Assembly: GCF_003367375.1 (NCBI RefSeq)
Contig: NZ_CP031416.1
Span: 2,115,501 to 2,179,500, forward strand
DNA length: 64,000 bases
DNA from: Gallaecimonas mangrovi
GTDB taxonomy: Bacteria; Pseudomonadota; Gammaproteobacteria; Enterobacterales; Gallaecimonadaceae
Reading direction: 5' to 3'
Part shown: positions 119 to 15,818 of the stretch, piece after piece
How positions within the stretch are numbered: the stretch's first letter is position 1
Layout of the letters: the number at the start of each line of letters is the position of its first letter
The notes under the pieces: model-generated
Seen by the model: only the letters and a program-made list of their open reading frames with translations
Told to the model about the DNA's origin: nothing
Databases searched by the model: none
Translations under genes and position numbers: made by a program

Positions 119-1366
119 TCAGCCGGCTTTACAGATCTGCGCTAGCGTGCGAAGGCGCCGCTTTGATTCGGCCACATAGGGATTCGTTTTGTCCCAGGCG
201 TAGCCAGCGAGAATAGAACACACCATGCGCTTTATCTTTGGATCAGGGGCCGGATAGAAGATAACGTCCTGAAAGCTGCCTTGATACCAGCCTTCTACAT
301 AGGTACGAAATACATCCACTCCGCCTTGCAGCGGCTCGGCAAAGTCGCGCTGCCAGTCAACGGTTTCACCGGCAAACTGGCGAACCAACGCTTTGGCCGC
401 CAGGCTGGCCGAGGTAAAGGCGATGGTGACACCAGAGGAAAAGACGGGATCAAGAAACTCACCGGCATTACCCAACAGGGCGTAGCCCGGACCATAAAGG
501 CTTTTCACCTTGGCCGAGTAGCCTTTAAGGGTATTAACAGGCTGGGGAAATTCTGCTCTTACCAACAACTTGGCAAGGCCAGGCTCAGCAAACACCAGTT
601 CTTTTAAGATGGCTGCGTGGTCACCAGACATTTGTTCAAAGAAGGCAATCTCTCCGACAACGCCTAACGAACAAGTGCCATCGGCAAAGGGAATAAGCCA
701 ATACCAAACCGCAGGGTGTTCTGGGTGAACGCTAATCAGGATCTTATTGCGGTCAAAGATATCAGGGTCGATACCATCCACCACATGGGTAAAAAAGGCT
801 TGTCGCGGCGCAAGCTCTGAGGGCATTTCCAAATCAAAGAGCCTTGGCAGCACCCGGGCAAAACCCGAGGCATCCAGCACAAAGTCGGCGTTGAGCTGGT
901 ATGACTGGCCGCTGGCATCGGTGCCCAGAAGGCATGCGCCCTGCTCCGTCATATCGACCTTATCAACGCTGTGCTCAAAGCGAATATCCACGCCTTGGGC
1001 CATGGCTTCGTCCGCCAGTAGCTTATCAAAGGCCGCACGTTTTACCTGGAAGGTGGTGCCAGGGCCGGGGCTGAATTTATCGGTGAAATCAAATTGGGCC
1101 TCTTGGCCCTGATAGCCAAAAGCGGCACCATTTTTAAACTGAAAACCCATTGCATCAGCCTTTGCTGCCACCGCCTGGGCAAGGCCGGCTTCTTCGAGAT
1201 AAACCATCGATTGCGGCAACAAACTTTCGCCGATAGAAAACCGCGGGAAACGGTTTTTTTCTAGTACCCGCACCTTAATACCCTGGCGGTGCAGTAACGT
1301 TGCCACCAGTGCCCCTGAAGGCCCGGCACCGATAACGGCCACCTGGACACTGTCATCCTTTTGCAT
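119..1366 (-). CDS. FAD-dependent halogenase-like oxidoreductase of the aryl polyene cluster
   Basis: This 415-residue flavoprotein starts with a Rossmann FAD motif (GAGPSG, residues 13-18), then the RFSIGESLLP segment shared by flavin-dependent halogenases and their relatives. It carries the halogenase signature WxWxIP as WYWLIP (221-226). A lysine in FKNGAAF (K78) sits where the catalytic lysine of phenolic halogenases is expected. A second FAD segment (LLGNAGEFLDPVFSSG) lies near residues 295-310. Such enzymes form hypohalous acid from FADH2, oxygen and halide and pass it to the lysine. It ends the aryl polyene operon, 5 nt after apeR. A halogenated pigment head group is an inference; a non-halogenating oxidoreductase is the alternative. 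Confidence 0.8.
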   Translation of the reverse strand: MQKDDSVQVAVIGAGPSGALVATLLHRQGIKVRVLEKNRFPRFSIGESLLPQSMVYLEEAGLAQAVAAKADAMGFQFKNGAAFGYQGQEAQFDFTDKFSPGPGTTFQVKRAAFDKLLADEAMAQGVDIRFEHSVDKVDMTEQGACLLGTDASGQSYQLNADFVLDASGFARVLPRLFDLEMPSELAPRQAFFTHVVDGIDPDIFDRNKILISVHPEHPAVWYWLIPFADGTCSLGVVGEIAFFEQMSGDHAAILKELVFAEPGLAKLLVRAEFPQPVNTLKGYSAKVKSLYGPGYALLGNAGEFLDPVFSSGVTIAFTSASLAAKALVRQFAGETVDWQRDFAEPLQGGVDVFRTYVEGWYQGSFQDVIFYPAPDPKIKRMVCSILAGYAWDKTNPYVAESKRRLRTLAQICKAG

Positions 1367-1371
1367 TGTTG

Positions 1372-2598
1372 TTATTCCTGATAACGATTAAAAATCAACG
1401 AAGTATTAATGCCACCGAAGGCAAAGTTATTACTCATCCAGCAGTCGATATTCATTTGGCGACCACGGCCCGTTAGGTAGTCCAACTCACCACAACGGGG
1501 GTCAAGGTCGGTCAAATTTAGGGTGGGTGCAAACCAGCCGTCGTGCATCATCTCGATGCCCAACCAGGCTTCCAAGGCGCCGCAGGCACCAAGGGTATGG
1601 CCAAAATAGCTTTTCAATGAATGTACCGGCACTTGCTGGCCAAATAGCTTGGCGGTGGCCTGGCTTTCAGCAATGTCGCCCTGCTCGGTCGCGGTGCCAT
1701 GCGCACTGATGTATTGAATGGCGCTGGCGTCTAAATCGGCGTTATCCAGCGCCAGCTGCATGGCCACTTCCATGGTCTCACTGGTGGGAGATGTAACATG
1801 GGCACCATCGCTGTTGGTACCAAAGCCAACAATTTCGGCGAGAATAGTGGCACCGCGCGCCTTGGCGTGTTCTAAGGATTCCAGAACTAAGGTTGCAGCC
1901 CCTTCGCCGATGACAAGGCCATCACGGTCACGGTCAAAAGGTCTTGGGGTTTGACTTGGCGTCGCGTTTTGGGTCGAGGTGGCGTAAAGCGTGTCAAATA
2001 CCGCCGCTTCAGTTGGGCATAACTCTTCAGCACCACCGGCCAGCATCACCGCCTGCTGGCCATATTTAATGGCTTCATAGGCAAAACCAATCGCCTGAGA
2101 GCCTGAGGTACAAGCGCTAGAGGTTGGGATCACCCGGCCTTTTAACCCAAAAAACAGGCTGACATTGACACAGGTGGTGTGAGGCATCATCTGGATATAG
2201 CTGGTGGCAGTGATCTTTGAACAATCCTGCCGCTCCAACATGGCTGAAAACGCCATAATGGGCGGTGTTGAACCGATTGACGAGCCATAGGCAATGCCGG
2301 TGGAACCGTCTTGAAGGCAGGCGGCGCCCAGCAACCCTGCCCGCTCTAAGGCTACTTCGCTAGCGCGGGTGGCCATCATCGCTACCCGGCCATGGGAGCG
2401 AATTTGTTTGCGCGAATAATGCGCTGGCCGCGAAAAGTCCACCGGCCCTGCCAGCTGTGTATTCATGCCTTGGTACTGCTGCCAGTCTTCCATTCGCACA
2501 ATACCGTTTTTACCGGCTTGCATCGCCGCTTTTACGCTGGGCCAGTCATGGCCAAGGGAGCTGATCCCGGCCATACCGGTAACAACAACGCGGTGCAT
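1372..2598 (-). CDS. apeR: Beta-ketoacyl-ACP synthase of the aryl polyene pathway (ApeR position)
   Basis: A FabF-like ketosynthase of 408 residues. It has the full catalytic triad: Cys163 in SSACTSGSQ, His300 in SAHGTATEQGD and His334 in SYFGHTLGACG. It condenses ACP-bound acyl chains with malonyl-ACP to extend the polyene. I chose the ATG at 2598 over the TTG at 2604 because the stop of the upstream ketoreductase overlaps it as TGATG, a standard translational coupling. Position and order (after apeO, apeP, apeQ) match the ApeR ketosynthase of known aryl polyene operons; the letter rests on synteny. Confidence 0.9.
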   Translation of the reverse strand: MHRVVVTGMAGISSLGHDWPSVKAAMQAGKNGIVRMEDWQQYQGMNTQLAGPVDFSRPAHYSRKQIRSHGRVAMMATRASEVALERAGLLGAACLQDGSTGIAYGSSIGSTPPIMAFSAMLERQDCSKITATSYIQMMPHTTCVNVSLFFGLKGRVIPTSSACTSGSQAIGFAYEAIKYGQQAVMLAGGAEELCPTEAAVFDTLYATSTQNATPSQTPRPFDRDRDGLVIGEGAATLVLESLEHAKARGATILAEIVGFGTNSDGAHVTSPTSETMEVAMQLALDNADLDASAIQYISAHGTATEQGDIAESQATAKLFGQQVPVHSLKSYFGHTLGACGALEAWLGIEMMHDGWFAPTLNLTDLDPRCGELDYLTGRGRQMNIDCWMSNNFAFGGINTSLIFNRYQE

Positions 2599-3323
2599 CA
2601 GCAAAGCCCTCCGTTAACAGCGATCACCTGCCGGGTAATGTAGGACGCTTTATCGGAGCATAAAAACGCTACTACATCGGCCACTTCTTTGGCCTGGCCA
2701 GCGCGGCGAAGGGGAATAAGCTCCTTAATGTGCGCCGCCGCTTCCAAATCCTCGGTCATCTCGGATTCAATCAACCCAGGTGCGACACAGTTAACGGTAA
2801 TTTTGCGTTTGGCCAGCTCTAACGCCAGGGCCTTAGTGGCGCCAATAATGCCAGCCTTGGACGCCGAATAATTAACCTGGCCACGGTTGCCAATCAGCCC
2901 TGACACCGAAGCAAGTGTGACAATGCGCCCGCCCCTTCGCCCCTGCACCATCGGCATAACCACCGGTTTAAGCACGTTATAAAAGCCGTCGAGGTTGGTG
3001 TGAATCACATCATCCCAATCATCATCGGTGAGTGCCGGAAAGGCGCCGTCGCGGCTAATACCGGCATTTACCACCACGCCATAATAAGCGCCATGCGTGG
3101 CAATATCGGCTTCAAGGGCTGATTTCGCGCTTTGGCGGTCACTGACATCAAAGGCCAGTAAACGGGCGTGGCCACCGGCCGCTTCAATCTCGGCCAAAAC
3201 CTTGGCAGCGGCGTCTTCACGACAGCGATAATGGATAACCACGGTGATATCTTCAGCGGCTAGCGCCTTAGCAATAGCGGCGCCAATACCCCGGCTGGCC
3301 CCGGTGACCAAAAACTGTTTCAT
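2598..3323 (-). CDS. apeQ: 3-oxoacyl-ACP reductase, FabG-like (ApeQ)
   Basis: A 241-residue short-chain dehydrogenase. It shows the NADP-binding motif TGASRGIG (7-14), NAG in VVVNAGIS (residues 86-88) and the catalytic Ser139, Tyr152 and Lys156 in ASVSG and NYSASK. It reduces the beta-keto group made by the cluster ketosynthases before dehydration, so each cycle leaves a conjugated double bond. It overlaps the upstream dehydratase gene by 4 nt (ATGA) and the downstream ketosynthase by 1 nt. A housekeeping FabG role is less likely because it lies inside the pigment operon. Confidence 0.92.
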   Translation of the reverse strand: MKQFLVTGASRGIGAAIAKALAAEDITVVIHYRCREDAAAKVLAEIEAAGGHARLLAFDVSDRQSAKSALEADIATHGAYYGVVVNAGISRDGAFPALTDDDWDDVIHTNLDGFYNVLKPVVMPMVQGRRGGRIVTLASVSGLIGNRGQVNYSASKAGIIGATKALALELAKRKITVNCVAPGLIESEMTEDLEAAAHIKELIPLRRAGQAKEVADVVAFLCSDKASYITRQVIAVNGGLC

Positions 3324-3781
3324 GGTTGTTCTCCTGCCAGAATAGATGCAGCATCGTTGGGCTGATAAACGGTTAACTGCGCGGTTTGGCGGCCTCGTGG
3401 GCCGGTTAACTGGCAGCTAAAAACGCTCAAGCCATTTTCCTGCATAAAACTTTGGGTAACGGCAATTTCTACCACGTCACCCAACTGGAAATAATCAAAC
3501 TCGGATTCAAAACGGCGTGTGCCCAGCAAAAAGCCCATTTTCACTGGCTCACCGGCCTGTTCGGCTTTAAGGCCAGCAAAAACGGCGATAGTTTGCGCCA
3601 TGTATTCGATGCCCACCCAAATCGGTACGCCTTGTTCATCGGCAAAAGTGCTTTGTGCGTCAATACGTACTTGGCAGCGGGCAAAGTCGTCCCCCCCGGC
3701 AAGCACCTTGTCAATTAGTAACATTGGCGCGCGGTGCGAAAGGTAATGAGCTGGTGCTTTAAATTCAGTCTGTTCAAACAT
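3320..3781 (-). CDS. apeP: Hotdog-fold 3-hydroxyacyl-ACP dehydratase (ApeP)
   Basis: A 153-residue protein of the predicted 3-hydroxyacyl-ACP dehydratase (hotdog) family. The N-terminal LSHRAPMLLIDKVL segment carries the family histidine, and WVGIEYMAQTIAVFAG forms the long central helix. It should dehydrate 3-hydroxyacyl-ACP to the trans-enoyl form without reduction, which gives the conjugated polyene. In studied systems ApeI and ApeP act in this step; both are present here. The start overlaps the 3' end of the apeO gene by 8 nt and its stop overlaps apeQ by 4 nt. Confidence 0.85.
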   Translation of the reverse strand: MFEQTEFKAPAHYLSHRAPMLLIDKVLAGGDDFARCQVRIDAQSTFADEQGVPIWVGIEYMAQTIAVFAGLKAEQAGEPVKMGFLLGTRRFESEFDYFQLGDVVEIAVTQSFMQENGLSVFSCQLTGPRGRQTAQLTVYQPNDAASILAGEQP

Positions 3782-4940
3782 GGCTAAAAATTACACTCAC
3801 GTTACTGCCACCAAAGGCATAAGAATTCGACATCACATGGCGCAGTGGTGTTTGTTGGCCGACTTCAGCAAAATTTAACGGCGGCAGTTGGCTGTCGTAG
3901 GGTGCTTGCCAGACTTGTGGCGGGGCGGTGTTTGCTAGCAGCGCTAAGTAACAAAAGGCCGCTTCCAGCGCACCTGCGGCGCCCAGGCAATGCCCTACCT
4001 GCGCTTTTGACGAACTGACCAGGGGCTTGTGGCTGAAAAAGCGCGCCACCAAAGCCGCTTCCATGGCATCGTTCTTTACAGTGCCGGTACCGTGCAGGTT
4101 GACATAATCGATGTTACTAACGTCCAAACCTGCTTGCGCCAGGGCTTGGTTCATTGCCAGCTCAGCCCCTTTACCCTCAGGATCTGGCGCGGATATGTGA
4201 TAGCCGTCTGATGACTCGCCCACCCCCGCAAGCTTTACAGCACTGTTACGGCGCGATAGCAGAAAAACCGCCGCGCCTTCGCCAATATTGATGCCCTGAC
4301 GCCCTTCACTAAAAGGACTGCAAAGCTTGCTTGATACCGACTCAAGCGCTGAAAATCCATTTAGGGTTAACCGGCAAAGGCTATCAACACCGCCCACCAC
4401 AACCGCATCAGCAAGGCCGGTCTGAATTAATCGCCAAGCACTGGCAAAGGCCTTACCGGAGGACGAACAGGCCGTGGACAAGGTGTAACTGGGCCCAGAA
4501 ATACCCAGGTAATCACTGGCAAAGCGGGCAACCGAGCCAAGCGTCTGCACGTCGTAATTAAAGCTCTCTGGCAGCCGGCGATGCTGCTGCCAATGCACCA
4601 GCGCTTGTTCACCGACATCAATTCCCGCAGTAGAGGACCCTAACACCACGCCTATCCGGTCTTGGCCGTACTCAGCCATTGCCCAGTCGATATCTGCTTT
4701 AAGGCCATCTAAAACTTGACGCAACATGCGGGTATTACGGCAATCAAGGTGCGAAAAAGCTGCCGGTAATGGCGATAAAGGCGCGGTAACTTTCCCCACC
4801 CAGGCCGGGGTTTCGTCAAGCAATAGACCTTGCTGCGCCGTTAAACCGACCTTGCCGCTAAAAAGGGATGTCGCTACCGCTTCTACGCTGTGGCCAATGG
4901 GTGTGAGCAGCGACGGTGCCGACAGGTATAAATCACTCAT
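3774..4940 (-). CDS. apeO: Beta-ketoacyl-ACP synthase, main chain-extending KS (ApeO)
   Basis: A 388-residue ketosynthase with Cys158 (STACSSSG), His283 (LHGTGTVKND) and His317 (SKAQVGHCLG), so it should be catalytically competent. In characterised aryl polyene systems ApeO works as a heterodimer with the ApeC-type chain length factor, which is also encoded here at 15126-15818. The gene sits between the DUF3261 lipoprotein and apeP, overlapping both by 8 nt. The pairing with ApeC is known for the family and inferred for this organism. Confidence 0.9.
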   Translation of the reverse strand: MSDLYLSAPSLLTPIGHSVEAVATSLFSGKVGLTAQQGLLLDETPAWVGKVTAPLSPLPAAFSHLDCRNTRMLRQVLDGLKADIDWAMAEYGQDRIGVVLGSSTAGIDVGEQALVHWQQHRRLPESFNYDVQTLGSVARFASDYLGISGPSYTLSTACSSSGKAFASAWRLIQTGLADAVVVGGVDSLCRLTLNGFSALESVSSKLCSPFSEGRQGINIGEGAAVFLLSRRNSAVKLAGVGESSDGYHISAPDPEGKGAELAMNQALAQAGLDVSNIDYVNLHGTGTVKNDAMEAALVARFFSHKPLVSSSKAQVGHCLGAAGALEAAFCYLALLANTAPPQVWQAPYDSQLPPLNFAEVGQQTPLRHVMSNSYAFGGSNVSVIFSHV

Positions 4941-5478
4941 AGGTTACCTCAAAGCCGTAACCAAGTTGCTGCTGGGAAAAACGAAAGCCCATGGGCTGAT
5001 ATTCAATAACAATAATGGCCTTACCTTGTTTACTAATAACGCGCCTATGGTCCTTTACGCTAAGCACTAAACCCAGCGGGGCCAAACTTTGCTGCAGAAC
5101 AGCCGTTGGCATCAGTGCCATGCTGAGGTCGGCTAATAAATGGCCTGGGTTAGCTTTGGCGGGCACTAATGCAGAACGTTTGGTGGTTAAAACGGTACCG
5201 TCAAAATTGGCTTGGAACAAAAAGGTACCGAAACCACTGAGTGCAGTTAAAGTCATCTTTTGGGGTGACAACGAAAGTTGGCCAACTAATTGCCAGCGCT
5301 CTTTACCATGCCAGGCTACAACCTGCTGCGTTTTATCGCGCTCCCCCTTCACCCAGCCCAAATCGGGCAACGACCAGACAAGGCCCTGCCCTAACGGGAT
5401 CTGTGGCTTCACTGGCGCGCTTAGGGTTTGGCAGCCACACAACAGTAACAACAGGCTCACCAGTAGTAGTGGCTTCAT
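4933..5478 (-). CDS. apeN: DUF3261-type outer-membrane lipoprotein (ApeN)
   Basis: A predicted lipoprotein of 181 residues. The signal peptide MKPLLLVSLLLLLCGCQTL ends in a lipobox (LCGC). The mature part is all-beta in character and resembles the DUF3261 proteins of aryl polyene clusters, thought to help move or anchor the pigment lipid at the outer membrane, much as LolB does for lipoproteins. I chose the ATG at 5478 because it overlaps the stop of the exporter gene as ATGA and has GAGG upstream; an in-frame ATG at 5493 would add five residues in front of the signal peptide. Confidence 0.8.
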   Translation of the reverse strand: MKPLLLVSLLLLLCGCQTLSAPVKPQIPLGQGLVWSLPDLGWVKGERDKTQQVVAWHGKERWQLVGQLSLSPQKMTLTALSGFGTFLFQANFDGTVLTTKRSALVPAKANPGHLLADLSMALMPTAVLQQSLAPLGLVLSVKDHRRVISKQGKAIIVIEYQPMGFRFSQQQLGYGFEVTYE

Positions 5479-7595
5479 GACGACCTCGCCCATAACAAGC
5501 TGCTACACCAGGCACATAACAGGCCAACTGCCACCACAGCCCCAAAACCTGCTAACACCGGCGTGCTCGACGCCATTAACAAGCCAAAGGCTAAAAGACT
5601 GGAGGCGAGCGACAGCAGTACCGCCAACAAGGTATGGTTTGCCGGGGCTTTTGAGGCGAAAAAGAGACAATAATCAAGGCTAAGCCCCAACACCAACATC
5701 AGCCCCAGCGCATGAATAAGGTTAAAAGGCTGCCCTAAAAAGGCGGGGGTCACCGCTGCGGCCGCCAAGGCCAAGGCACTGGCAAAAATGACCTTAAGGC
5801 CATTTTTCTTAAGCGTAACCACCAACACGACAGCCAAGAGTAAAAACGCCAGCGCCAATAGTTTGAGCACTTGGTCGCGATAATGACCAAAGGTTTTTGT
5901 GGCCTGGCTTGCCGGGTCAATAAGGGTAAGGTCGTTAAGGGCTTTGGCACCGCTAGCACTGAGCCCCTGCAGCACCATCACCGACGTATGTTGGTCTGTT
6001 AATAAAAGGCTCAAACGCCCCTCTTTTATCGGCCAATGCTCAGGAGATAAACCGGTTGCCAAAGCAGGTGCAGGCCCAAGCGCACCGCCAACCTGGCTAT
6101 TGAGCTGCTGCCATAGCTGACGTATGCGCTGGTGGTCGGCCCGCTGGCGCGCAAGCGAAGGACAGCGCTGGCTAACGGCTAGTACCGACGCCAGTTGGTC
6201 TTTAGCCTCTAACGCTTGCAGCCTTGGCATTATTGCCTCTTCTTTTTCCAGCAACTGTTCGGTGCTAGCGGCGGTGATAAGCAAATATTGGCCGCCCGGG
6301 CGCTGCCCCAGCCAATAGGCCAAACGGTTGGCAACTGCTTCCAGGCTCGGATCTTTTGGCTGCCACTGACGAATATCGTCATTAAATGACAGCTGGCGAA
6401 CACCCAGGGCGCACCAGACAGTGACGATAACCAGCAACGCCCACTTGGCCCAGGGCCGGTGCCTGCTTACCGCTAATAGCAGCGTGGCTGGCCATTGCCG
6501 GCTGGCAACCTTAGGTATTGGCGTTAGAAAACGCACATAACAGTACGCCACCATCAGCCCGCCAAGGGCGGCAACGCCCAGTTGCGCCAGCCCCGGAAAT
6601 GGCGATAACACCAGCACGCCATAAGCGCAGAGGCTTGAAACCAGCCCGCCCAACAAGGGGCCTCTGATGGCGCGCTGATGTTCCCCAGCCGCCAAGGCGT
6701 GAAAGCCATAGTCGGCACAGATGCCAATAACACTGGCCCCCATCACCAACGCCAGCCAGTGGGCATGGGGAAAACACCACCACAGCGCCGTTAAGGCACC
6801 GATAAGCGACAACGCCAATAACCCCGCCATAAACCCAAGCGCTCTTAGGCCACCAAAGCCCCAGACAATTAGCACCAATACGCCAACCAGGGCCAAGCTA
6901 CCAAAACGGCTGACCTCTCGCTGCGCCTGCTGGGCACCTTGCTGCGCATAAAGCACAGTGCCTAAGGCTTGTGCTTTTACCGGCAGCGCCGCTAGCCATT
7001 GGCTCACCCGGCGCTGCACCTTGGCGTCATAAGCAGAGCCATTAATTTCGGCCGACAAAATAAGCGCGTAACGACCGTCTTTTTGCCACAGCGGCCAACC
7101 ATCGAACAGCTGAATGTGGCTGCCGGCGGGGCGTAAATCTTGTAGCCAATCACTAAAGGTAAATAAGGGATCAGCGCGCAGGCTGGTGGGCGTTGGACCA
7201 AACCAAAGTGCCATGGCCCTATTAATGAGCTGAGCGTTACTTGCTTGGCGGTCCTTAACCGACAAAACCTGGCCCCGGAATTTGGCAAGGCGCTGATAAC
7301 CGGCGTTATTGCCGCCCTGCCAAGCGCTGATGATGTCACTGTTATCCAGCACCTTCGCCAGGGCATTGCCTTTTTTAACCAGTGTCTTTGGGTTGCTATC
7401 TTCCACCAGCAGCCACAGCTGGCGATCAAAACGGCTTTTCAGTTGTGTAAAGGCGCCATTATTGGCCCCTTTTAGCTCGGCAAAATCCTTGGGTAGCAGC
7501 TCGCTTAGCTGCGAAGACGGCGCTACGCCCAGCAACAAGCGCATCGACAATAGCGCCACTAATACCAAAGAAAAACCCGCAAGCCTCACTGGCAT
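5475..7595 (-). CDS. apeM: MMPL/RND-family exporter for the aryl polyene lipid (ApeM)
   Basis: A 706-residue inner-membrane protein with the MMPL layout: one N-terminal helix, a large periplasmic loop (about residues 30-210), a bundle of five or six helices (about 215-360), a second helix near 385-405, a second periplasmic loop, and a C-terminal bundle (about 575-705). These proteins resemble the HpnN and MmpL lipid exporters and are thought to move the finished aryl polyene lipid from the inner membrane to periplasmic carriers. It overlaps apeL by 10 nt and apeN by 4 nt. Relatively few acidic residues lie in the membrane, as usual in this subgroup. Confidence 0.88.
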   Translation of the reverse strand: MPVRLAGFSLVLVALLSMRLLLGVAPSSQLSELLPKDFAELKGANNGAFTQLKSRFDRQLWLLVEDSNPKTLVKKGNALAKVLDNSDIISAWQGGNNAGYQRLAKFRGQVLSVKDRQASNAQLINRAMALWFGPTPTSLRADPLFTFSDWLQDLRPAGSHIQLFDGWPLWQKDGRYALILSAEINGSAYDAKVQRRVSQWLAALPVKAQALGTVLYAQQGAQQAQREVSRFGSLALVGVLVLIVWGFGGLRALGFMAGLLALSLIGALTALWWCFPHAHWLALVMGASVIGICADYGFHALAAGEHQRAIRGPLLGGLVSSLCAYGVLVLSPFPGLAQLGVAALGGLMVAYCYVRFLTPIPKVASRQWPATLLLAVSRHRPWAKWALLVIVTVWCALGVRQLSFNDDIRQWQPKDPSLEAVANRLAYWLGQRPGGQYLLITAASTEQLLEKEEAIMPRLQALEAKDQLASVLAVSQRCPSLARQRADHQRIRQLWQQLNSQVGGALGPAPALATGLSPEHWPIKEGRLSLLLTDQHTSVMVLQGLSASGAKALNDLTLIDPASQATKTFGHYRDQVLKLLALAFLLLAVVLVVTLKKNGLKVIFASALALAAAAVTPAFLGQPFNLIHALGLMLVLGLSLDYCLFFASKAPANHTLLAVLLSLASSLLAFGLLMASSTPVLAGFGAVVAVGLLCAWCSSLLWARSS

Positions 7596-8080
7596 TGCCC
7601 GCGAGTAAGGGTAATAAGCGTTTGCCCGCCTTGCGGTTCATCAAGGCGAATGCGGTGTGGCGGTTGCCCGGTGACGGTAATGTCACTAATGCCTTTGGCC
7701 ACCAGCGCGTCTTGGGGCACCAGGGTTAATGTTTCTCCCTGGCGATTAACCTTGAAATGTTGTGCCAGCGCCTTTTCATCCCCTGTCATTACCGCCGCTA
7801 ACAGTGTCCCTAAGCTTGCCACTAACGGGTTGTCGCCATTGGCTATTTGCTGGCGCACCTGACCCGGCAGGCTTTGATATAGCCCTGCTGGGCTGACTTC
7901 CAGCGTGCTGGCGAAGGGTTTTAAAGTTTGCCAAATAAGGGTGTTGCCTTGCAGTTGGTAGTGCCCGGAAGAATGAAAGGCCTGGTGCATGCCCGGCACT
8001 TGCTTTTGCTGCTGAAAGTCGCCGCACGGGGCCGGTTTTGCCAATGCGTTTGCCAGCATCAGCGCTGCTAGTACGGCCAT
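7586..8080 (-). CDS. apeL: LolA-like periplasmic carrier (ApeL)
   Basis: A 164-residue exported protein with a short N-terminal signal peptide ending near ANALA-KP. The mature part shows alternating polar and apolar strands (HYQLQGNTLIWQTLKPFAS) like LolA-type lipoprotein carriers found in aryl polyene clusters. It most likely ferries a hydrophobic acyl product across the periplasm between the MMPL exporter and the DUF3261 lipoprotein. The gene overlaps the thioesterase gene by 13 nt and the exporter gene by 10 nt. Identification rests on the strand pattern and on synteny. Confidence 0.75.
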   Translation of the reverse strand: MAVLAALMLANALAKPAPCGDFQQQKQVPGMHQAFHSSGHYQLQGNTLIWQTLKPFASTLEVSPAGLYQSLPGQVRQQIANGDNPLVASLGTLLAAVMTGDEKALAQHFKVNRQGETLTLVPQDALVAKGISDITVTGQPPHRIRLDEPQGGQTLITLTRGQCQ

Positions 8081-8487
8081 GGTTCCCCCAGCTTGTCAAA
8101 CAACACTTTCGGCGATACAAACTGCATTTCGCCGGAGTTTTTATCCACGGCAACTTGCACACTTTGCGCCTTGGTAAGGCGAGTTCCAGTTTCCTTGCAG
8201 CGCACTTCATAGCGCATCCCCAAGCGATTTTGAAACTCGGTCAGGGTCGCGGTCACCAGCAGGTGTTGGTTTAAGGTCGCCGAGCGAATGTATTTCACCT
8301 TCAAATCGACGATGGGCCAGACATAACCCGAGGCCTCCATTTCCAGATAGTTGTAATCAAAGCTATCGAGCAACGCACTTCTGGCCACTTCGAAATAGCG
8401 CAGATAGTTACCATGCCAGGCCACTTGCATTGGGTCGAGGTCGTGGAAAGGGACCTGTACTTCCACTGTAACTTCACGCGTCTTCAT
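8068..8487 (-). CDS. apeK: Acyl-ACP/CoA thioesterase, 4HBT hotdog family (ApeK)
   Basis: A 139-residue YbgC-like thioesterase. The signature VPFHDLDPMQVAWHGNY holds the catalytic Asp18 and the conserved His25 and Tyr28. In aryl polyene systems the ApeK thioesterase has been proposed to release product or to clear stalled acyl-ACPs. It sits directly after the ammonia-lyase gene, overlapping it by 14 nt, so the two products should be made in step. Confidence 0.85.
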   Translation of the reverse strand: MKTREVTVEVQVPFHDLDPMQVAWHGNYLRYFEVARSALLDSFDYNYLEMEASGYVWPIVDLKVKYIRSATLNQHLLVTATLTEFQNRLGMRYEVRCKETGTRLTKAQSVQVAVDKNSGEMQFVSPKVLFDKLGEPWPY

Positions 8488-10000
8488 AAAGGCTCCATGA
8501 CTGCTGGCGAAGCTGTGCCATTAAGTGGCGCAAATCAGCTTCAAGTGGCCTGTCGTTTTTCACGGGTTCGCAGTATGTGAATACGGCGCTGATAAAACGG
8601 TCTAAAGCCGCACTTAGCGCCAGGGGTTGCTGCTGGGCTCTTAACCAACAGCCTTGGCAAGCGGCCAATAAAGAGGCGGCAGTAACCTGTTCGGTTAGCT
8701 CAATAATGCGTAAACAGTCGCGGGCAGCAATAGTGCCCATACTGACCTTGTCTTGGTTGTGACATTCGGTAGACCGGGAAAAAACCGACGCCGGCATGGT
8801 GTGTTTCAGTGCTTCTGCCGTCCAGGCCGAAACACCAATCTGCACCGCTTTAAAACCGTGGCTGATATAACGTTCACGACCATCGGCACCGGTCAAGTTA
8901 GCCGGTAAGCCGTTATTAAACTTGCTGTCGACCAAGGATGCTAGCTGCCGGTCTAAAAGGTCAGCAAGGTTAGCGACCTGCACTTTCAGGGTATCCATGG
9001 CCATGGCGATATGACCACCGTAAAAATGACCACCGTGCAGCACTTGCTCACCTTCGCTATCGATAATGGGGTTATCGTTGGCGCTATTGAGCTCGGTTTC
9101 TATCAGGGTGCGAAGCCATGGCAGAGCGTCTTCCAGTGCACCTATTACATGGGGCGCGCAGCGCAGCGAATAACGGTCTTGTAAACGGCTATGGGCAGCA
9201 TCGCCCTGGTAGTTAAGGTCGGCGCGCAACCGCTCGGCAACAAGGCCCTGGCCGGGGTGCGGCTTTACGGCAAAAAGGGTTTTATCAAAGTGATAGCTAT
9301 TACCGCCTAAAGCTTTACTCACCAATGCTGTAATACGGGTTGCCATGGCGCTTAAATAGCGGCTTTGTGCAAAAGCCTGGCAGGCCAAGGCGGTCATCAC
9401 TGCCGTGCCATTCATAATGGCTAAGCCTTCTTTTGGCTTAAGCGTTAGCGGTTCTACCCCCTTTAGCGCCAGCACGGCTTGGGTTTCTTGCACCTGGCCT
9501 TGGTAATACACCTGCCGCTCGCCCACCAAGACGGCGGCAAGATACGAAAGCGGCGTCAGATCGCCAGAAGCGCCAACCGAACCTTCGGCAGGAATAACGG
9601 GAATAATGTCTTCTTGCAGCAACCAAACCAGCCGCTCTAATAACGCCAAGGTTACCCCGGAATGGCCTTGGCACAACGACGCCAAACGGCTTGCCACAAT
9701 GGCCCTGCCTTCTTGCAAGGTGAAATGCCGGCCCAAACCGCAGCCGTGAAAACGCGTTAAATTAAGCGGCAGCGCTTCAACCAATTCCGACGGGACGGCA
9801 ACGGTTACCGAGTCGCCATAGCCGGTAGTCACGCCATAAATGCCGCCTTCTTCACGCCAGAGGCGGTCGAGAAAAGCGGCACCTTTTTCAATATGCTGGC
9901 GATACGGCGTACTGTCATCAAGCTGCACAGCCACCTTACGTGCAGCAATGGCATTAATATCTTCAATGCCAATAGGTTTCCTACCAAACACCACTGTCAT
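8474..10000 (-). CDS. Aromatic amino acid ammonia-lyase (HAL/TAL/PAL family)
   Basis: A 508-residue ammonia-lyase. The MIO cofactor tripeptide is Ala144-Ser145-Gly146 in GSVGASGDLTPLSYL, and the catalytic tyrosine lies in YGVTTGYG (55-62). The substrate-selectivity pair, read by alignment to NL..SHAAG of histidine lyase, is Phe84-His85 in NLTRFHGCGLG. HutH has Ser-His and Rhodobacter TAL has His-Leu, so neither matches. No hut genes are nearby, and the gene is coupled by 4 nt to apeJ and 14 nt to apeK. The likely role is to supply a cinnamate or 4-coumarate starter for the ApeH ligase. Histidine degradation is the less likely option. Confidence 0.88.
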   Translation of the reverse strand: MTVVFGRKPIGIEDINAIAARKVAVQLDDSTPYRQHIEKGAAFLDRLWREEGGIYGVTTGYGDSVTVAVPSELVEALPLNLTRFHGCGLGRHFTLQEGRAIVASRLASLCQGHSGVTLALLERLVWLLQEDIIPVIPAEGSVGASGDLTPLSYLAAVLVGERQVYYQGQVQETQAVLALKGVEPLTLKPKEGLAIMNGTAVMTALACQAFAQSRYLSAMATRITALVSKALGGNSYHFDKTLFAVKPHPGQGLVAERLRADLNYQGDAAHSRLQDRYSLRCAPHVIGALEDALPWLRTLIETELNSANDNPIIDSEGEQVLHGGHFYGGHIAMAMDTLKVQVANLADLLDRQLASLVDSKFNNGLPANLTGADGRERYISHGFKAVQIGVSAWTAEALKHTMPASVFSRSTECHNQDKVSMGTIAARDCLRIIELTEQVTAASLLAACQGCWLRAQQQPLALSAALDRFISAVFTYCEPVKNDRPLEADLRHLMAQLRQQSWSLYEDA

Positions 10001-11682
10001 GGCTTGTCTTCCTGTTTACGCTCGCCGTTATCGGCCTGCCAAAAGTCGAAAAAATTAAACCACTGCAATGGGGTTTGCTGGCAATGGCTGCTGAGCCGGT
10101 CGGCAAAGCGCTGGGCCCAGCTGCCAAGTTGTTGCTGACGATTTTTGCGTGAAAGCACAATGCCTTCGGCGGCAAAGGGCGCTAACGACACTCGGTGGTG
10201 GCGCCCCTGGCGGGTGCAAAAAAGGGTAAAAACCGGGCATTCGAGGACATGAGCCATAACCCAAGGGCCAATAGGAAAAGGCGCGTCTTCACCGAGAAAG
10301 TTGCAGCTGACGGTATGCCCGGGTTTCGTCGCCGAGGTGCGATCCCCCACCATCACCACCAATTCGCCAGCCTCAATACGCTGGCGCAAAATCATCGCCG
10401 TATCGGGGCCCATTTGACTGACTTCGAGCATGTTCATTTTGGCGGCGGGATTAATTTCAGCCAGCAGTGCATTGAACTTCAAGGCATGTTCGGTGAGCAC
10501 TAGCACCGTCATCGGTTTATCCGACAACGCCCGGCACAACTCGAGGTTACCAAGGTGGGCGCCAACCAATAAGGCGCCTTGGCCACTTTGCTGAAGTTGC
10601 GACAAATGCTCGCGCCCATCAAAGGCGAGTTGCTCACGGGTTTCGCCGCGCCCAGCCCACGTTGCCAGCTTATCCAGCACACTTTCCCCAAAGGCCATGT
10701 GGTGACGAAAACTGGTCCAAAGCCCAGGCTTGGCGGCGACCCCAGGCATGGGGCCAAACTGCTCAAAACAGCGCTGCAGGTAGGCTAAGGAATAACGTCG
10801 GCTGGCGCCGGTGGCAAAGAAATACGCCATCACTGGATACAAAAACAGCCGAAACCCAGGGCGCCCAAATAGCCGAAAGGCAAGCCACAGGCAGCGCATA
10901 CCTAAGCGGCTGCCCCGCTCCCCCATTGCCGACCAGTGTTTAGGCTTTGCAAAACGCCGAGCCAGCAACCAAGGCGCCCGCCAAATCATGCCGAAAAACA
11001 GCCGGGTATGCATTTTCGAGATAAGCCAGTTGTCTTGCCAAGCATTAAAGTGGGAAGCGCCATCTTCGGGGTAGATAACCTTGGTTTTAACCTGTTTGAT
11101 GGCCATGCCAGACCAGAGCAACCGCACCATGACTTCAATATCAAAATCCATGCGCTGGCCTAGCTTTACGTTGTCAAAAAGAGCAACGGTATCCGCCAAT
11201 GGATACACCCGAAACCCGCACATAGCGTCTTTAATGGTCAAGCTTAAGGTTTCAATCCATACCCAAACATGGGTGAGATAGCGGCCATATAACCGGCCTT
11301 TCGGCACTGACGCATCGTAAGCCGGCATGCCGGCGATTAATGCTTTTGGGGCCGCTTTGGCTTCGCTAAGAAAATGGGGAATATCGTCAAGGGCATGTTG
11401 GCCGTCGGCATCGACCTGAAAACCGTGGCTAAAACCGGCATCAAGGGCGCTGCGCAGCCCTGTCATAACGGCGCCACCTTTACCCAAATTTTGCTCATGG
11501 GTAACGATGGTAATAGCGGGGTATTTAGCCACTGCCGCTTGCAACATAGCACTATGCTGCGGTGAAGAACCGTCATTAACCACAATCACTGGCAGCCCGG
11601 TTTCTGCCAGCAACGGCAAGGTGCGGCTCGCCGCCGGACCATGGTTGTAAAATGGCACCACCAAGCAAGGCTTAAAACTCAC
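9997..11682 (-). CDS. apeJ: Glycosyltransferase family 2 / LpxL-like acyltransferase fusion (ApeJ)
   Basis: A two-domain protein of 561 residues. The N-terminal GT2 domain (about 1-240) has CLVVPFYNHG, VVNDGSS and the metal-binding DxD as VDADGQ. The C-terminal LpxL/HtrB-type acyltransferase domain (about 270-561) has the HX4E motif in GAHLGNLEL. It probably builds the glycolipid anchor and transfers the polyene acyl chain to it at the inner membrane. The start is a GTG at 11682 that overlaps the stop of apeI (GTGA). Such fusions are typical of aryl polyene clusters. Confidence 0.9.
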   Translation of the reverse strand: MSFKPCLVVPFYNHGPAASRTLPLLAETGLPVIVVNDGSSPQHSAMLQAAVAKYPAITIVTHEQNLGKGGAVMTGLRSALDAGFSHGFQVDADGQHALDDIPHFLSEAKAAPKALIAGMPAYDASVPKGRLYGRYLTHVWVWIETLSLTIKDAMCGFRVYPLADTVALFDNVKLGQRMDFDIEVMVRLLWSGMAIKQVKTKVIYPEDGASHFNAWQDNWLISKMHTRLFFGMIWRAPWLLARRFAKPKHWSAMGERGSRLGMRCLWLAFRLFGRPGFRLFLYPVMAYFFATGASRRYSLAYLQRCFEQFGPMPGVAAKPGLWTSFRHHMAFGESVLDKLATWAGRGETREQLAFDGREHLSQLQQSGQGALLVGAHLGNLELCRALSDKPMTVLVLTEHALKFNALLAEINPAAKMNMLEVSQMGPDTAMILRQRIEAGELVVMVGDRTSATKPGHTVSCNFLGEDAPFPIGPWVMAHVLECPVFTLFCTRQGRHHRVSLAPFAAEGIVLSRKNRQQQLGSWAQRFADRLSSHCQQTPLQWFNFFDFWQADNGERKQEDKP

Positions 11683-12032
11683 CGTGCCTCCTTGGCCATG
11701 AGAATACGGCCGCTGGCATGATTACCCCGGACCGAGTGGTAGCTAAACAGCAGTCGGCCTTTCACGTCGTCATATTGCAAGCGAAGATGCAGTTGCAGGC
11801 CAGGTACCACCAGCGCTTGAAACTTTACCGCTTCCATACGCTGGCTTTTCAGCGTTAAGCCAAAATGTTCAGCACCAAAGCGTGCCGCCCAGTCCAATTG
11901 GGCAACGCCAGGCAAAATAGGCAGTTCGGGAAAATGGCCCTGAAAATAGGCCAGCTTTGGGTCCATCTCTAAAACCAATTCCAGACCCTGCTCGGTCAGA
12001 TGGCGCTCTACAACTTCAGGCAGCGTCAACAT
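11679..12032 (-). CDS. apeI: Hotdog 3-hydroxyacyl-ACP dehydratase (ApeI)
   Basis: A 117-residue FabZ/FabA-like hotdog protein. The motif FQGHFPELPILPGVAQLDW contains the catalytic His of the GHFPxxPILPGV signature. It dehydrates 3-hydroxyacyl-ACP during polyene extension, either alone or with ApeP. It starts 3 nt after apeH and ends overlapping apeJ by 4 nt. Confidence 0.9.
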   Translation of the reverse strand: MLTLPEVVERHLTEQGLELVLEMDPKLAYFQGHFPELPILPGVAQLDWAARFGAEHFGLTLKSQRMEAVKFQALVVPGLQLHLRLQYDDVKGRLLFSYHSVRGNHASGRILMAKEAR

Positions 12033-12035
12033 AGA

Positions 12036-13379
12036 TCACTCTTCAAATAAAGCGGATAGCGCTTGTTGGGTCAGTTTACCCTGGCTATTCACAGGGAACG
12101 ACGCCACTATCCGCCAGCGGCGCGGTAGCACCACCGGTTCAAATTCTGTTAGCAGCGATTGGCGTAGCTGCTGCACAAAGCGGTGTTTGCCAAGCTCAGC
12201 CAAAGCGTTCTCACCCTTGCTAGAGAGCAGCAACACTGCGCCCAGTTGTTGGCGTCGGCCGCTGAGCAGCAGGCATTTGCCGCTCTGTACATAACAATGG
12301 CGCGCTAAAGCGTTCTCCATGGCATCAAGAGACAAGCGCTTTTGCTCGACTTTAACAATGCGATCGCGTCGGCCCTGCAACATAAAGCGGCCGTCATCCG
12401 CGAACGCAACCTTATCGCCCATCACAACCGGCGCGCCACTAACGATGGAATGCACCACCAGCACCCCTTCACTATCAAGACTGCAATCTACCCCCGCAAA
12501 AGGCTGCCATTGCTCGCTACGCTGCTGACAGCGCCAAGCAACACCGCCGGTTTCGGTAGAGCCAAACACCTCAATGGGAGCCACATCAAAACATTGCAGG
12601 CAATCTGCAGCGCCCTCGGCACTTAACAGGCCCCCAGAGCTAAATACGGCGCTCAATTTGCCTTTTATTGCCGCAAGCATCGATGGCTCAGGCAGGCGCG
12701 CTAAGTGAGCAGGGCTTGCCACTAACACAAAAGGGCCGCTTTGGCGCTGCCCAATAGCGTCAAGTTGCTCTGGATAATGCAGCACCTGGCGGCTGATAAC
12801 GGCGCCTGAAAATACCGGCCACAGCAGCCGAAACAGCAAGCCGTATATATGTTGATGGGAAACCGTGGCTAACAGTTCACCTTCAAGGGGGCCAAACTGC
12901 TGGTCAAGTACCTGTATTTCAGCCAACAGTTGGCTGGCTTCTTTGGCCACCGATTTCGGCTCACCCGTACTGCCTGACGTAAAAAGCTGTATCGGGCCAA
13001 GCGGCGGGTAACAGCCTGGGCCCGGGTGGTCGAAGGGGTTTAATCGCCGTTGCCGGCTAGCGATATTTTGGCTGCTAATAATGCCATCAACTTGCACCAT
13101 TGCGAGGCTTTGCTCTTGCCCATTGGCGGGCAAAATAGCGCTGGCCTCCGCTTGCCAACAGGCCAGCAGACCAATAAAAAAACCGGCCACATCGGTATCC
13201 CAAAGCAGCCAGCACTGCCCTTTTGCTAGCTGCTGACTCAGCCCACCTGCTAGCCTGGCTATCTCTTGGCCGCTAAGTACCGGTGAATTAAAAAGCGGTG
13301 CGGCGCTATCTAGCCGCGCCGTTAGGGCCGCTATCCAGCGCGCTTGTTGCTGCGAATAAACCATTGTCGGTAACACCAT
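12036..13379 (-). CDS. apeH: AMP-forming acyl/aryl-ACP ligase (ApeH)
   Basis: A 447-residue adenylate-forming enzyme, shorter than usual acyl-CoA synthetases. It has the AMP-binding loop FTSGSTGEPKSV and the FGSTETGG motif, and the hinge/C-terminal part carries GRRDRIVKVEQKRL. It should adenylate the aromatic starter acid (a cinnamate-type acid if the nearby lyase supplies it) and load it on ApeE or ApeF. The ATG at 13379 overlaps the upstream apeG gene by 49 nt; an in-frame ATG at 13364 is an alternative start. Confidence 0.88.
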   Translation of the reverse strand: MVLPTMVYSQQQARWIAALTARLDSAAPLFNSPVLSGQEIARLAGGLSQQLAKGQCWLLWDTDVAGFFIGLLACWQAEASAILPANGQEQSLAMVQVDGIISSQNIASRQRRLNPFDHPGPGCYPPLGPIQLFTSGSTGEPKSVAKEASQLLAEIQVLDQQFGPLEGELLATVSHQHIYGLLFRLLWPVFSGAVISRQVLHYPEQLDAIGQRQSGPFVLVASPAHLARLPEPSMLAAIKGKLSAVFSSGGLLSAEGAADCLQCFDVAPIEVFGSTETGGVAWRCQQRSEQWQPFAGVDCSLDSEGVLVVHSIVSGAPVVMGDKVAFADDGRFMLQGRRDRIVKVEQKRLSLDAMENALARHCYVQSGKCLLLSGRRQQLGAVLLLSSKGENALAELGKHRFVQQLRQSLLTEFEPVVLPRRWRIVASFPVNSQGKLTQQALSALFEE

Positions 13380-13867
13380 TCACCGGCAAAAAGGCAGCCC
13401 ATCAGCACATAACTGATGGCGCCATTGTAAAGTGTCCATAACTGACGAGAGCCCCAAAAGGCCGTCATCAATGCCAAGCTGCCGTTAACCAGAAAAAAGC
13501 CGCACCATACCCAGGTAACTTTACGGGTATAGGCAACGCCAGATGCCGGTAAGTCGGGCTCTTTTAAACGGGCTAAGCGTTCTATCATGCAGGGGCCTTG
13601 GTAAAGGCTATAACCAAAAGAAGCCAATAACCCCAGGTTCACCAGTACCGGGTACAGTTTTAACCCCACGTCACTATTGCTAAAGGCGGAAAAACCAAGC
13701 GCTAATGCAGCCAGCGGCAGCCAGAATTTCTCGGCGCGGCCAGCGCTTCGTAGCCGCAGCGCCAGTAATGCCAGCACCAACAAGGCAATGTAACCGGGCG
13801 CCAAAAAATGTAGCCCCAAGCCAATGGCCAAGGGATACAACAGCCACAATAACACGCCTGGCTTCAA
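13331..13867 (-). CDS. apeG: Polytopic membrane protein, COG4648-like (ApeG)
   Basis: A 178-residue integral membrane protein with about five or six predicted helices, beginning at LLWLLYPLAIGLGLHFL. It resembles the COG4648 membrane proteins found between the ACP and ligase genes of aryl polyene clusters. The biochemical role is not established; it may organise the biosynthetic enzymes at the inner membrane. The start overlaps the apeF stop by 4 nt. Confidence 0.78.
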   Translation of the reverse strand: MKPGVLLWLLYPLAIGLGLHFLAPGYIALLVLALLALRLRSAGRAEKFWLPLAALALGFSAFSNSDVGLKLYPVLVNLGLLASFGYSLYQGPCMIERLARLKEPDLPASGVAYTRKVTWVWCGFFLVNGSLALMTAFWGSRQLWTLYNGAISYVLMGCLFAGEWCYRQWFIRSNKRAG

Positions 13868-14112
13868 GCCGCGGCCACCAGGCTCAATACCGCATCGACC
13901 ACATCGTCAATAGTGCGAACGGTTTTAAATTGCTCGGGCTGGATCTTCTTACCGGTTAAATCTTGTAGTTTGACCACCAAATCGACGGCATCAATGGAAT
14001 CGAGGTCCAAGTCAGTATAAAGATGCGCTTCTGGCACTACGGCTTCGGCATCAATTTCAAAGTCATCGACCAAAATGGTCTTTAGTTCGGCAAAAATCTG
14101 GTCGCGCGTCAT
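13864..14112 (-). CDS. apeF: Acyl carrier protein (ApeF)
   Basis: An 82-residue acidic carrier protein. The phosphopantetheine serine lies in DLDLDSIDAVDL (about residue 35), and the fold of four helices is apparent. It carries the growing polyene chain and needs activation by a phosphopantetheinyl transferase; one is encoded at 15997-16578. It overlaps apeG and apeE by 4 nt each. Confidence 0.93.
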   Translation of the reverse strand: MTRDQIFAELKTILVDDFEIDAEAVVPEAHLYTDLDLDSIDAVDLVVKLQDLTGKKIQPEQFKTVRTIDDVVDAVLSLVAAA

Positions 14113-14369
14113 GCGGCCTCCTGAGAACGAATAAATGCGGCCAGGCTTGCAACACTGGCAAAATGAGACTTGGTATCGCTGGCGTTGGCGTCAATTTTGA
14201 CTTTATAGCGTTTTTGGATCGCAAGACCCAGTTCTAGCGCGTCAATGGAATCAAGGCCTAAACCTTCACCGAACAGAGCGGCATCAGTTTCGATGTCTTC
14301 TTCACAAACGTCTTCAAGTTCCAAGGCGTTGATAATCAACGTCTTCAGTTCGGTTTCCAGATCGCTCAT
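14109..14369 (-). CDS. apeE: Acyl carrier protein (ApeE)
   Basis: An 86-residue acyl carrier protein with the phosphopantetheine attachment serine in GLGLDSIDALEL. It is the first of two adjacent ACPs, as in other aryl polyene operons, where the pair may divide starter loading and extension. It overlaps the 3' end of apeD by 56 nt, the longest overlap in the operon, so the apeD C-terminus is encoded within this reading region. Confidence 0.93.
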   Translation of the reverse strand: MSDLETELKTLIINALELEDVCEEDIETDAALFGEGLGLDSIDALELGLAIQKRYKVKIDANASDTKSHFASVASLAAFIRSQEAA

Positions 14370-15138
14370 CTGTGTTGTTTTCCTTATTTAATACCTGGGC
14401 CAAATAACGGGTCAGTACCCTGGCCGACAGGGCCGTGCAGGGGTCTTGGTTAGCAAAAGACTGGGGCGAAATCGGCCTACCGACCGATGCAGTCAATAAA
14501 AAGCGTTTTTTAGGTACCTGATACCAAGCGGTTTGCTTGGTTAGGGTACGGGGAGCAATTTGTAAGTTCACCGGCAGCAATGGATAGCCAGTTTTCAAGG
14601 TCAGTTGCGCAGCGCCACGGGTCAGTGGATTTAGCTGCACCTCAGGCTCGGTGCGGGTACCTTCGGGAAAAATAATCAGCGAAAAGCCATCGTTCAAACT
14701 CTTTTGGGCCGCCTCAATCAGGGCCTGCCCTTGGTGCTGATTGCTAATGTAGCCGGTCGCCTTTACTACCCCGCGCATAAACGGGTTTTTCCAAACACTG
14801 GCTTTGACTACGCAGTCAGCCTTAGGCATGTGCGCTATTAGCAGTACCACATCTAACAATGACGGGTGATTTGCCACAACCACACAGGGCTGTGCATTTA
14901 ATGCGGCCTCGTCATCGACTTTATAGCGGCAGATCCCAAGCCATGTCAGGGCGTTTAAGAAAAAGCGAAAACTTTTAGACACCACCTTTCGCGCCACCAC
15001 TTTACGACGATGGCTGTCTTTAAAACGCAAGCTAATCAGCGGGAACGCTGTTAGGCACAGGCAGACACCACCGATACCAAAAGCACTAAACGCAAAGCCG
15101 GTTGCCACGATACGCCAACACCGATTCAATACTGCCAT
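14314..15138 (-). CDS. apeD: 1-acylglycerol-3-phosphate O-acyltransferase-like enzyme (ApeD)
   Basis: A 274-residue PlsC-family acyltransferase. It has one N-terminal membrane helix, the HX4D catalytic motif in NHPSLLD and the FPEGTRT substrate motif. It likely acylates the lipid part of the aryl polyene glycolipid. I chose the ATG at 15138 because GGAGG lies 7 nt upstream; a TTG at 15159 and an ATG at 15144 are in frame. It overlaps apeC by 13 nt. Confidence 0.87.
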   Translation of the reverse strand: MAVLNRCWRIVATGFAFSAFGIGGVCLCLTAFPLISLRFKDSHRRKVVARKVVSKSFRFFLNALTWLGICRYKVDDEAALNAQPCVVVANHPSLLDVVLLIAHMPKADCVVKASVWKNPFMRGVVKATGYISNQHQGQALIEAAQKSLNDGFSLIIFPEGTRTEPEVQLNPLTRGAAQLTLKTGYPLLPVNLQIAPRTLTKQTAWYQVPKKRFLLTASVGRPISPQSFANQDPCTALSARVLTRYLAQVLNKENNTDERSGNRTEDVDYQRLGT

Positions 15139-15818
15139 TGCCATCCCTCCCCTTGGCAATGAAGATGGCCACTGTTACCGGTGGCCAGTAACGCCGCCAG
15201 TTGCATCGCCATTGGCCAATTGTCATCGCTACTGCAATCAGAACGGCTGACACTCACCTCTTGGCCTCGACTCAATCGCAGCGCCAGCGCATGGTCCACC
15301 TGTTTATTGTGCATGTAGGGTAAATAGACGTCTGGCACGGCTTGTTCACCGGCTATCAGCAGCACTTCATCGGCGCCACTTTCCAAGGTGGCGTAGGCTT
15401 CGATTAAGCCACTTATCAAGCTATCGTCGCCGCCAACCACAACGTTGGCCGGCGCTTTATCACGGCGAAGGATGCCAAAAAGCCCGGCGGCGGCATTGTG
15501 CACCGACAAACTAAAGTGGGTAGGAGATAGGGGTTCGGATTGCCCCAGGTCAGTTAACAGCTGAAAAGTACGATGCAGCTCGCCATGGCGACTGGCAAAG
15601 ATAACCGGCAAGCTTTCATCGCCTGCAACCTGTTTAGCGCAAGCCAACTGGATACGGGTTAACGAGGAAAGACGGCGGCGCTGCACAGCCGGCACCCAGC
15701 TTATATCGGGCGGCGATGGCTCACCAAGTACTGGGTTTTGCGCCCATTGCCGCCAAAGCGCCGGTTGATGAACACCTGGGGCCCAAGCTGACCAGGCTTT
15801 AACAGCAAAGCGTAACAT
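15126..15818 (-). CDS. apeC: KS-like chain length factor without the active-site cysteine (ApeC)
   Basis: A 230-residue protein of the beta-ketoacyl synthase N-terminal-like family. It keeps the KS fold segment (HFSLSVHNAAAGLFGIL), but the residue expected to be the nucleophilic Cys is replaced (SVHNAAAG), so it cannot condense. This fits the ApeC-type chain length factor that pairs with ApeO. It is about half the length of a full KS, as usual for the family. The ATG at 15818 is overlapped by the stop of a 32-codon upstream ORF (TGATG); a GTG at 15821 is in frame. Confidence 0.85.
   Translation of the reverse strand: MLRFAVKAWSAWAPGVHQPALWRQWAQNPVLGEPSPPDISWVPAVQRRRLSSLTRIQLACAKQVAGDESLPVIFASRHGELHRTFQLLTDLGQSEPLSPTHFSLSVHNAAAGLFGILRRDKAPANVVVGGDDSLISGLIEAYATLESGADEVLLIAGEQAVPDVYLPYMHNKQVDHALALRLSRGQEVSVSRSDCSSDDNWPMAMQLAALLATGNSGHLHCQGEGWQWQY

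Follow-up and report, generated by a model that had tools for sequence, protein, structure and literature searches.

The window, by which we mean the whole 64,000-nucleotide stretch of Gallaecimonas mangrovi DNA analysed here, contains an aryl polyene (APE) operon on its minus strand. At 119..1366, also on the minus strand, is the gene for an APE-associated flavin-dependent halogenase-type enzyme (FDH), which starts with an ATG at 1366, ends with a stop at 119 and encodes a polypeptide of 415 amino acid residues. The reading frame is real, with a lysine at residue 78 and WYWLIP at residues 221–226, as the first-pass annotation had described. The same holds for its spacing, as the gene of an ApeR-type ketosynthase ends at 1372 and leaves 5 nt to the halogenase-type gene, and for its assignment to an APE operon, as the apeR to apeC genes and the gene of an aromatic ammonia-lyase were all found upstream in the same orientation.

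The gene next to the halogenase-type gene encodes an ApeR-type beta-ketoacyl-ACP synthase (1372..2604), which scored 708 bits with NCBIfam NF006587, above the cut-off, and was 61–84% identical to its orthologues of related clusters. It is followed, on the minus strand like all other genes of the operon, by the genes for an ApeQ ketoreductase of the FabG2 type (2598..3323; above the cut-off of TIGR01831, and 284 bits with the FlxB model, below its cut-off of 340), an ApeP dehydratase (3320..3781; PF22817, ApeP-like), an ApeO-type ketosynthase (3774..4940; 489 bits with NF006618, above the cut-off) and a DUF3261 lipoprotein at the ApeN position (4933..5493; PF11659), placed as in E. coli CFT073. 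The MMPL-type transporter at the ApeM position (5475..7595) was assigned by synteny with E. coli CFT073 and has homologues in the clusters of the same genus. The LolA-like carrier at the ApeL position (7586..8080) and the acyl-CoA thioesterase at the ApeK position (8068..8487) were also assigned by synteny. The aromatic, tyrosine-type ammonia-lyase (8474..10000) scored 326 bits with the FlxA TAL model, below the cut-off of 700, and was below the cut-offs of the HutH models; we infer that it provides the 4-hydroxycinnamate starter. Further upstream are the genes for ApeJ (9997..11682), a glycosyltransferase-acyltransferase fusion that served as the APE marker in our genome census, the ApeI dehydratase (11679..12032; PF22818, ApeI-like) and the AMP-dependent aryl-ACP ligase ApeH (12036..13379), which was identified by synteny and scored 92 bits, below the cut-off, with the 4-coumarate-CoA ligase model TIGR02372. 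Synteny also identified a membrane protein at the ApeG position (13331..13867), which had no Pfam match, acyl carrier proteins 2 (13864..14112) and 1 (14109..14369), which were 74–85% and 79–83% identical within the genus, respectively, a lysophospholipid-type acyltransferase at the ApeD position (14314..15159) and a ketosynthase chain length factor at the ApeC position (15126..15821). Finally, a probable phosphopantetheinyl transferase is tentatively assigned to 15997..16500; it is kept beside the cluster in genomes of the same genus, and its full frame of 252 amino acid residues had no Pfam match.

With its apeC to apeR core and aromatic ammonia-lyase, this is a complete APE cluster of the ammonia-lyase type. 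Compared to the APE cluster of E. coli CFT073, the operon of the window has an extra ammonia-lyase gene and the halogenase-type gene, whereas it lacks the methyltransferase gene of E. coli CFT073; no match to an APE methyltransferase was found anywhere in the genome. The window starts 118 bp past the end of the halogenase-type gene. In the flank outside the window, small lipoprotein genes of the same orientation are followed by genes that, judged by eye, look like housekeeping genes (gyrase A, UbiG and ribonucleotide reductase). Thus, the halogenase-type enzyme appears to be the final pathway gene of the APE operon. The identical order, apeC to apeR and then the halogenase-type gene, was found in three other genomes of the same genus. 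A consensus scan identified no dedicated promoter for the halogenase-type gene, and no second full-length halogenase was found elsewhere in the genome. The genome also encodes two Flavin_Reduct proteins, neither of which is within the APE cluster, and either could be the FADH2 source for the enzyme.

The FAD motif GxGxxG of the window protein is G13-A-G15-P-S-G18, which was invariant in 39 aligned sequences. The WxWxIP motif is W221-Y-W223-L-I225-P226, and the residues F304-L-D306-P307-V-F309-S310-S-G312 match both the Fx.Px.Sx.G and Fx[DE]Px[EFL] halogenase motifs as defined previously (PMC8407142). F309 occupies the site of the tryptophan-halogenase glutamate, as in most aligned phenol/pyrrole enzymes. 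The catalytic lysine was defined as the equivalent of PrnA K79 at the tunnel end, and K78 was assigned to it by alignment position only. When the structure-based comparison suggested by the first-pass annotation was run at the level of the alignment, K78 fell in the lysine column of CndH and of six other solved halogenases, PltA, ChlB4, Mpy16, Bmp2, CmlS and FasV, as well as of the structure 3NIX. In the joint alignment, the chain index of this lysine is 76 in CndH. It is 76 in PltA and 91 in CmlS, which we take to be the catalytic K73 and K71, respectively, after likely tag offsets. K78, W221, W223, I225, P226, F304, P307, S310 and G312 were invariant in 38 aligned sequences, and the identities of the relatives with the window protein ranged from 52 to 75%. 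Moreover, the three motifs were found in 88 of 88 homologues (the aligned range of three of them contains an in-frame stop) and in all 31 additional full-length homologues, a total of 119 homologues scanned. Given this invariance and recurrence, the motifs are not there by chance. The window protein also scored 72 bits with the Pfam Trp_halogenase model, whose cut-off is 21; this model is unspecific and its cut-off is also passed in E. coli, so that the match alone is weak evidence.

The AlphaFold2 model of the window protein had a pLDDT of 92 and a pTM of 0.90. In the structure comparison, the model was closest to 3NIX (Z 50.1), followed by ChlB4 (41.1), PltA (40.2), Mpy16 (40.0), Bmp2 (40.0) and CndH (37.0); with FasV included, the Z scores for these halogenases were 37–41, which places the protein in the halogenase fold. 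By sequence, the best solved relative was also 3NIX (E 7e-110), and then ChlB4, Bmp2, CmlS, Mpy16, CndH, FasV and PltA. 3NIX is from the Bacteroidota member Cytophaga hutchinsonii, is 44% identical to the window protein over the full length and shares the lysine as well as the motifs WIWVIP and FLDPIFSSG. One tree placed it next to the proteobacterial clade but not within it, and its position was unsettled in the other. The top halogenases by Z score, ChlB4, PltA, Mpy16 and Bmp2, are mostly known for carrier-protein-bound substrates, with the deep branches of the two trees unsettled. Similar to the window protein, these phenol/pyrrole halogenases possess the fold (Z 39–41), the four motifs and a phenylalanine in place of the tryptophan-halogenase glutamate. 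However, they are only 23–27% identical to it, belong to other pathways and are separated from it by a long branch.

At least 550 relatives were identified in a scan of named genomes. Among the best 80 of these, which were kept for context, most belong to APE clusters, where the usual position is between apeM and apeN/apeO. Vibrio, Photobacterium, Grimontia and Aliivibrio have the gene directly downstream of an aryl methyltransferase gene and divergent from the APE core. The hosts include marine genera, such as those of Vibrionaceae and Shewanella, and also Cupriavidus, soil Pseudomonas, Stutzerimonas, Pseudoxanthomonas and Corallococcus. A second genome collection showed that the APE cluster of Acinetobacter baumannii carries the gene as well. 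In strain VB31459 (L152:10001-11296), the apparent orthologue was 54% identical to the window protein, possessed all motifs and was part of an ammonia-lyase-type cluster, where it lies between apeM and apeN, whereas the gene of the window follows apeR. This orthologue is annotated merely as an NAD(P)/FAD-dependent oxidoreductase despite its full set of halogenase motifs. The presence of the same subfamily in the APE clusters of Cupriavidus, Stutzerimonas, Pseudoxanthomonas, Corallococcus and A. baumannii speaks against the link to sea-water bromide that had been drawn earlier for this gene. With many hosts from soil or associated with humans, sea water or bromide was rejected as a predictor of the gene.

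A census of 296 genomes of the order, with ApeJ as the APE marker, identified ApeJ in 134 genomes and the halogenase-type gene in 68. Sixty-seven of these 68 genomes were also positive for ApeJ (Fisher p 2e-27), although the p-values of this census overstate the evidence, as the genomes are related; about a dozen families are nevertheless involved. The exception was one genome (G030) in which the halogenase-type gene was found without an ApeJ match. In family f2 and in a single genome outside it, 0.5–1.9 Mb of the same contig separated the gene from ApeJ, yet the pathway was present; such unlinked genes were observed in G352, G382, G396, G435, G316 and G018. The ammonia-lyase was present in 63 of the 67 APE genomes with the halogenase-type gene, and 28 APE genomes with the ammonia-lyase lacked the halogenase-type gene. 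In Aliivibrio, 12 of 13 APE genomes carried it. This distribution is the pattern of an optional tailoring enzyme for ammonia-lyase-type APEs. Mutual exclusion between the halogenase-type gene and the ring methyltransferase gene was considered and rejected, as the two assorted independently among the 134 APE genomes (35 with both, 32 with the FDH only, 43 with the methyltransferase only and 24 with neither; p 0.22); their adjacency in Vibrio also counters it.

Search results from Xanthomonadaceae were bimodal, with ~30 genomes at 54–60% identity and ~120 at 31–37%. The homologs of the latter kind sit in diverged APE-like clusters and keep the same motifs. In the one such cluster inspected, the homolog adjoins a gene for an FkbO/Hyg5-type (XanB2-type) chorismatase, as expected for xanthomonadin-type clusters. 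These xanthomonadin-type homologs (clade II) formed a clade closed at 100/99–100, with the window protein outside. Similar to the window protein, the xanthomonadin-type halogenase possesses the motifs and is located in an APE cluster. Different from the cluster of the window, however, in which an ammonia-lyase is found, the starter of the xanthomonadin-type clusters is supplied by a chorismatase. Given the 31–37% identity, the separate clade and the ammonia-lyase, the possibility that the window protein is the xanthomonadin halogenase was rejected, and the analogy with xanthomonadin in the first-pass annotation thus runs through a different subfamily. Whether all APE halogenases form a single clade depended on the tree: the two clades were apart in one tree and together at 92/84 in another, and the alternative was not rejected (p-AU 0.24). 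The subfamily of the window protein is on a long stem branch of 2.65 changes per site, so its function may have shifted. One genome (G146; L138:8666-11579) contained two xanthomonadin-type halogenase genes in tandem in one cluster.

Halogenase genes in APE clusters were already published in 2013–14, and the presence of one in such a cluster is not new. Xanthomonas has a halogenase gene in its cluster and a brominated pigment, whereas Lysobacter has neither, and a figure legend of the same paper describes halogenase genes as conserved among the clusters depicted, L. enzymogenes and Xylella excepted (PMC3691225). This correspondence between halogenase and bromination in Xanthomonadaceae, however, concerns the other, xanthomonadin-type subfamily. 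In Azoarcus BH72, the pigment cluster contains arcA, a 'halogenase' gene, yet the product arcuflavin, C41H52O4, is nonbrominated and unhalogenated (PMC3949708). As arcA is beside a XanB2 chorismatase gene, it is probably of the other subfamily. Thus, the product of an APE cluster is not necessarily halogenated when a halogenase-type gene is present. Of the first-pass annotation, the halogenase fold and motifs, the lysine column of K78 and the tight APE linkage stand, whereas the xanthomonadin analogy and the bromide link do not, and a halogenated APE does not follow automatically. For E. coli CFT073, whose cluster is without the gene, the APE head group is described as methylated, and halogenation is mentioned for xanthomonadin alone (PMC8253772). 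The literature searched yielded no halogenated product for any member of the window subfamily, and nothing usable on chlorinated flexirubins or on halogenase mutants of xanthomonadin producers. To our knowledge, the APE structure of V. fischeri contains no halogen.

The window protein is an APE tailoring enzyme and most likely a halogenase. We consider it reasonably probable that it is an FDH-type tailoring enzyme dedicated to ammonia-lyase-type APEs and halogenates their aryl head. The motif set, the fold, the order of the Z scores, the co-occurrence with the APE pathway that includes unlinked copies, the frequent ammonia-lyase, the adjacency to the methyltransferase gene in Vibrio, the methylated head group of E. 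coli CFT073, the match of halogenase gene and bromination in Xanthomonadaceae and the two candidate flavin reductases all argue for a halogenase; the Azoarcus pigment, the frequency of the gene in Aliivibrio together with the V. fischeri APE structure, the long stem branch and the lack of a reported halogenated product argue against it. Under the mechanism that we propose, a free flavin reductase would supply FADH2, which would bind at G13-x-G15-x-x-G18 and react with O2 to a C4a-hydroperoxide, and attack by halide would give HOX. W221/W223 and F304-P307-S310-G312 would line the tunnel through which the HOX travels to K78, and K78 would then pass X+ to the 4-hydroxyphenyl head, at the carbon ortho to its phenol. 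During halogenation, an Ape acyl carrier protein would probably carry the head or the growing polyene as a thioester, a possibility raised by the two acyl carrier proteins of the operon. While the family, the fold, all motif residues and the dependence on the APE pathway are demonstrated here, we infer the reaction itself: its chemistry, the site on the ring, the halide, with chloride as likely as bromide, and its timing, with the substrate still carrier-bound.

Monooxygenases with the FDH fold exist, which may count against a halogenase. An example is QhpG of quinone cofactor biogenesis: the halogenase CmlS is its closest structural relative, but its reaction is the hydroxylation of a tryptophan within a protein (PMC7876137). 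The window protein might similarly have a halogenase fold but act as a flavin monooxygenase, with the aryl head or a carbon of the polyene as the site of hydroxylation. Such an activity would account both for the lack of any halogen in the reports and for the occurrence of the gene in habitats low in bromide. The related FAD fold of QhpG is reflected in its NCBIfam model, which was the second-best model match. However, the 101 of 240 bits with the QhpG model and 136 of 900 bits with the CmlS model are well under the cut-offs, and the window protein is an equivalog of neither. Hydroxylases of the p-hydroxybenzoate hydroxylase (PHBH) type were the next structural group with Z of about 35, below the 37–41 of most halogenases though above the 33 of CmlS. 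Moreover, the catalytic lysine is invariant in >100 homologues, and a hydroxylase has no known need for it. Thus, we regard a monooxygenase as unlikely. A redox role that has nothing to do with halogen, for example that of a dehydrogenase, a reductase or an isomerase with the polyene or its lipid anchor as the substrate, would fit the deposition of 3NIX as a 'flavoprotein/dehydrogenase' and the additional matches of the window protein to geranylgeranyl-reductase models. That name, however, is a structural-genomics label for a protein that itself retains the lysine and both motifs, and the APE cluster of E. coli, which in CFT073 is without such a gene, still yields the polyene (PMC8253772), which makes a redox role quite improbable. 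Finally, loss or breakage of the gene in several lineages (G001, G005 and one Xanthomonadaceae cluster) would suit a halogenase relic, with fold and motifs kept but activity on the pigment rare or absent, which is very improbable given that the motif residues do not vary between the many families compared and that the gene persists, even unlinked, almost only alongside the APE pathway.

APEs are a very common class of yellow pigments. Little is known of head-group chemistry in the ammonia-lyase type, and many records, those of A. baumannii included, label the gene just 'oxidoreductase'. We tentatively propose two outcomes for the halogenase-type enzyme and its relatives. Either a widespread, uncharacterised subfamily of marine Vibrionaceae and Shewanella, soil Pseudomonas and Cupriavidus, and A. 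baumannii chlorinates or brominates the heads of ammonia-lyase-type APEs, in which case halogenated APE lipids would be common but overlooked, or the products contain no halogen and a full halogenase signature occurs without halogenation. If the products truly lack halogen, the rule for predicting halogenases from sequence would be broken. The function of the enzyme would thus decide whether halogenated APEs are common or the signature used in halogenase mining is fallible.

Incomplete copies of the gene were observed in several genomes. In a genome of the same genus (G001; L143:17912-18718), the gene is reduced to two copies of its final 53 residues, which are 0.65 kb apart and 81% identical to the window protein; this genome has lost the whole APE cluster, and the gene fragments alone remain. 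In a genome of the same order (G005), the gene is in pieces and the APE genes are kept. The gene of one Xanthomonadaceae genome (G118; L139:9288-10587) is split in two overlapping frames within an otherwise complete-looking APE cluster. In Neisseria gonorrhoeae NZ_CP119140.1 (L153:8001-9194), a ~55%-identical relative is in three pieces with shifted frames and looks like a broken remnant. Finally, a plasmid of Aureispira anguillae, which possibly carries a pigment cluster, encodes a second FAD-dependent oxidoreductase (L151:3882-5405) beside a fused MMPL/acyltransferase/methyltransferase protein, with a relative nearby that is 41.5% identical to the window protein.
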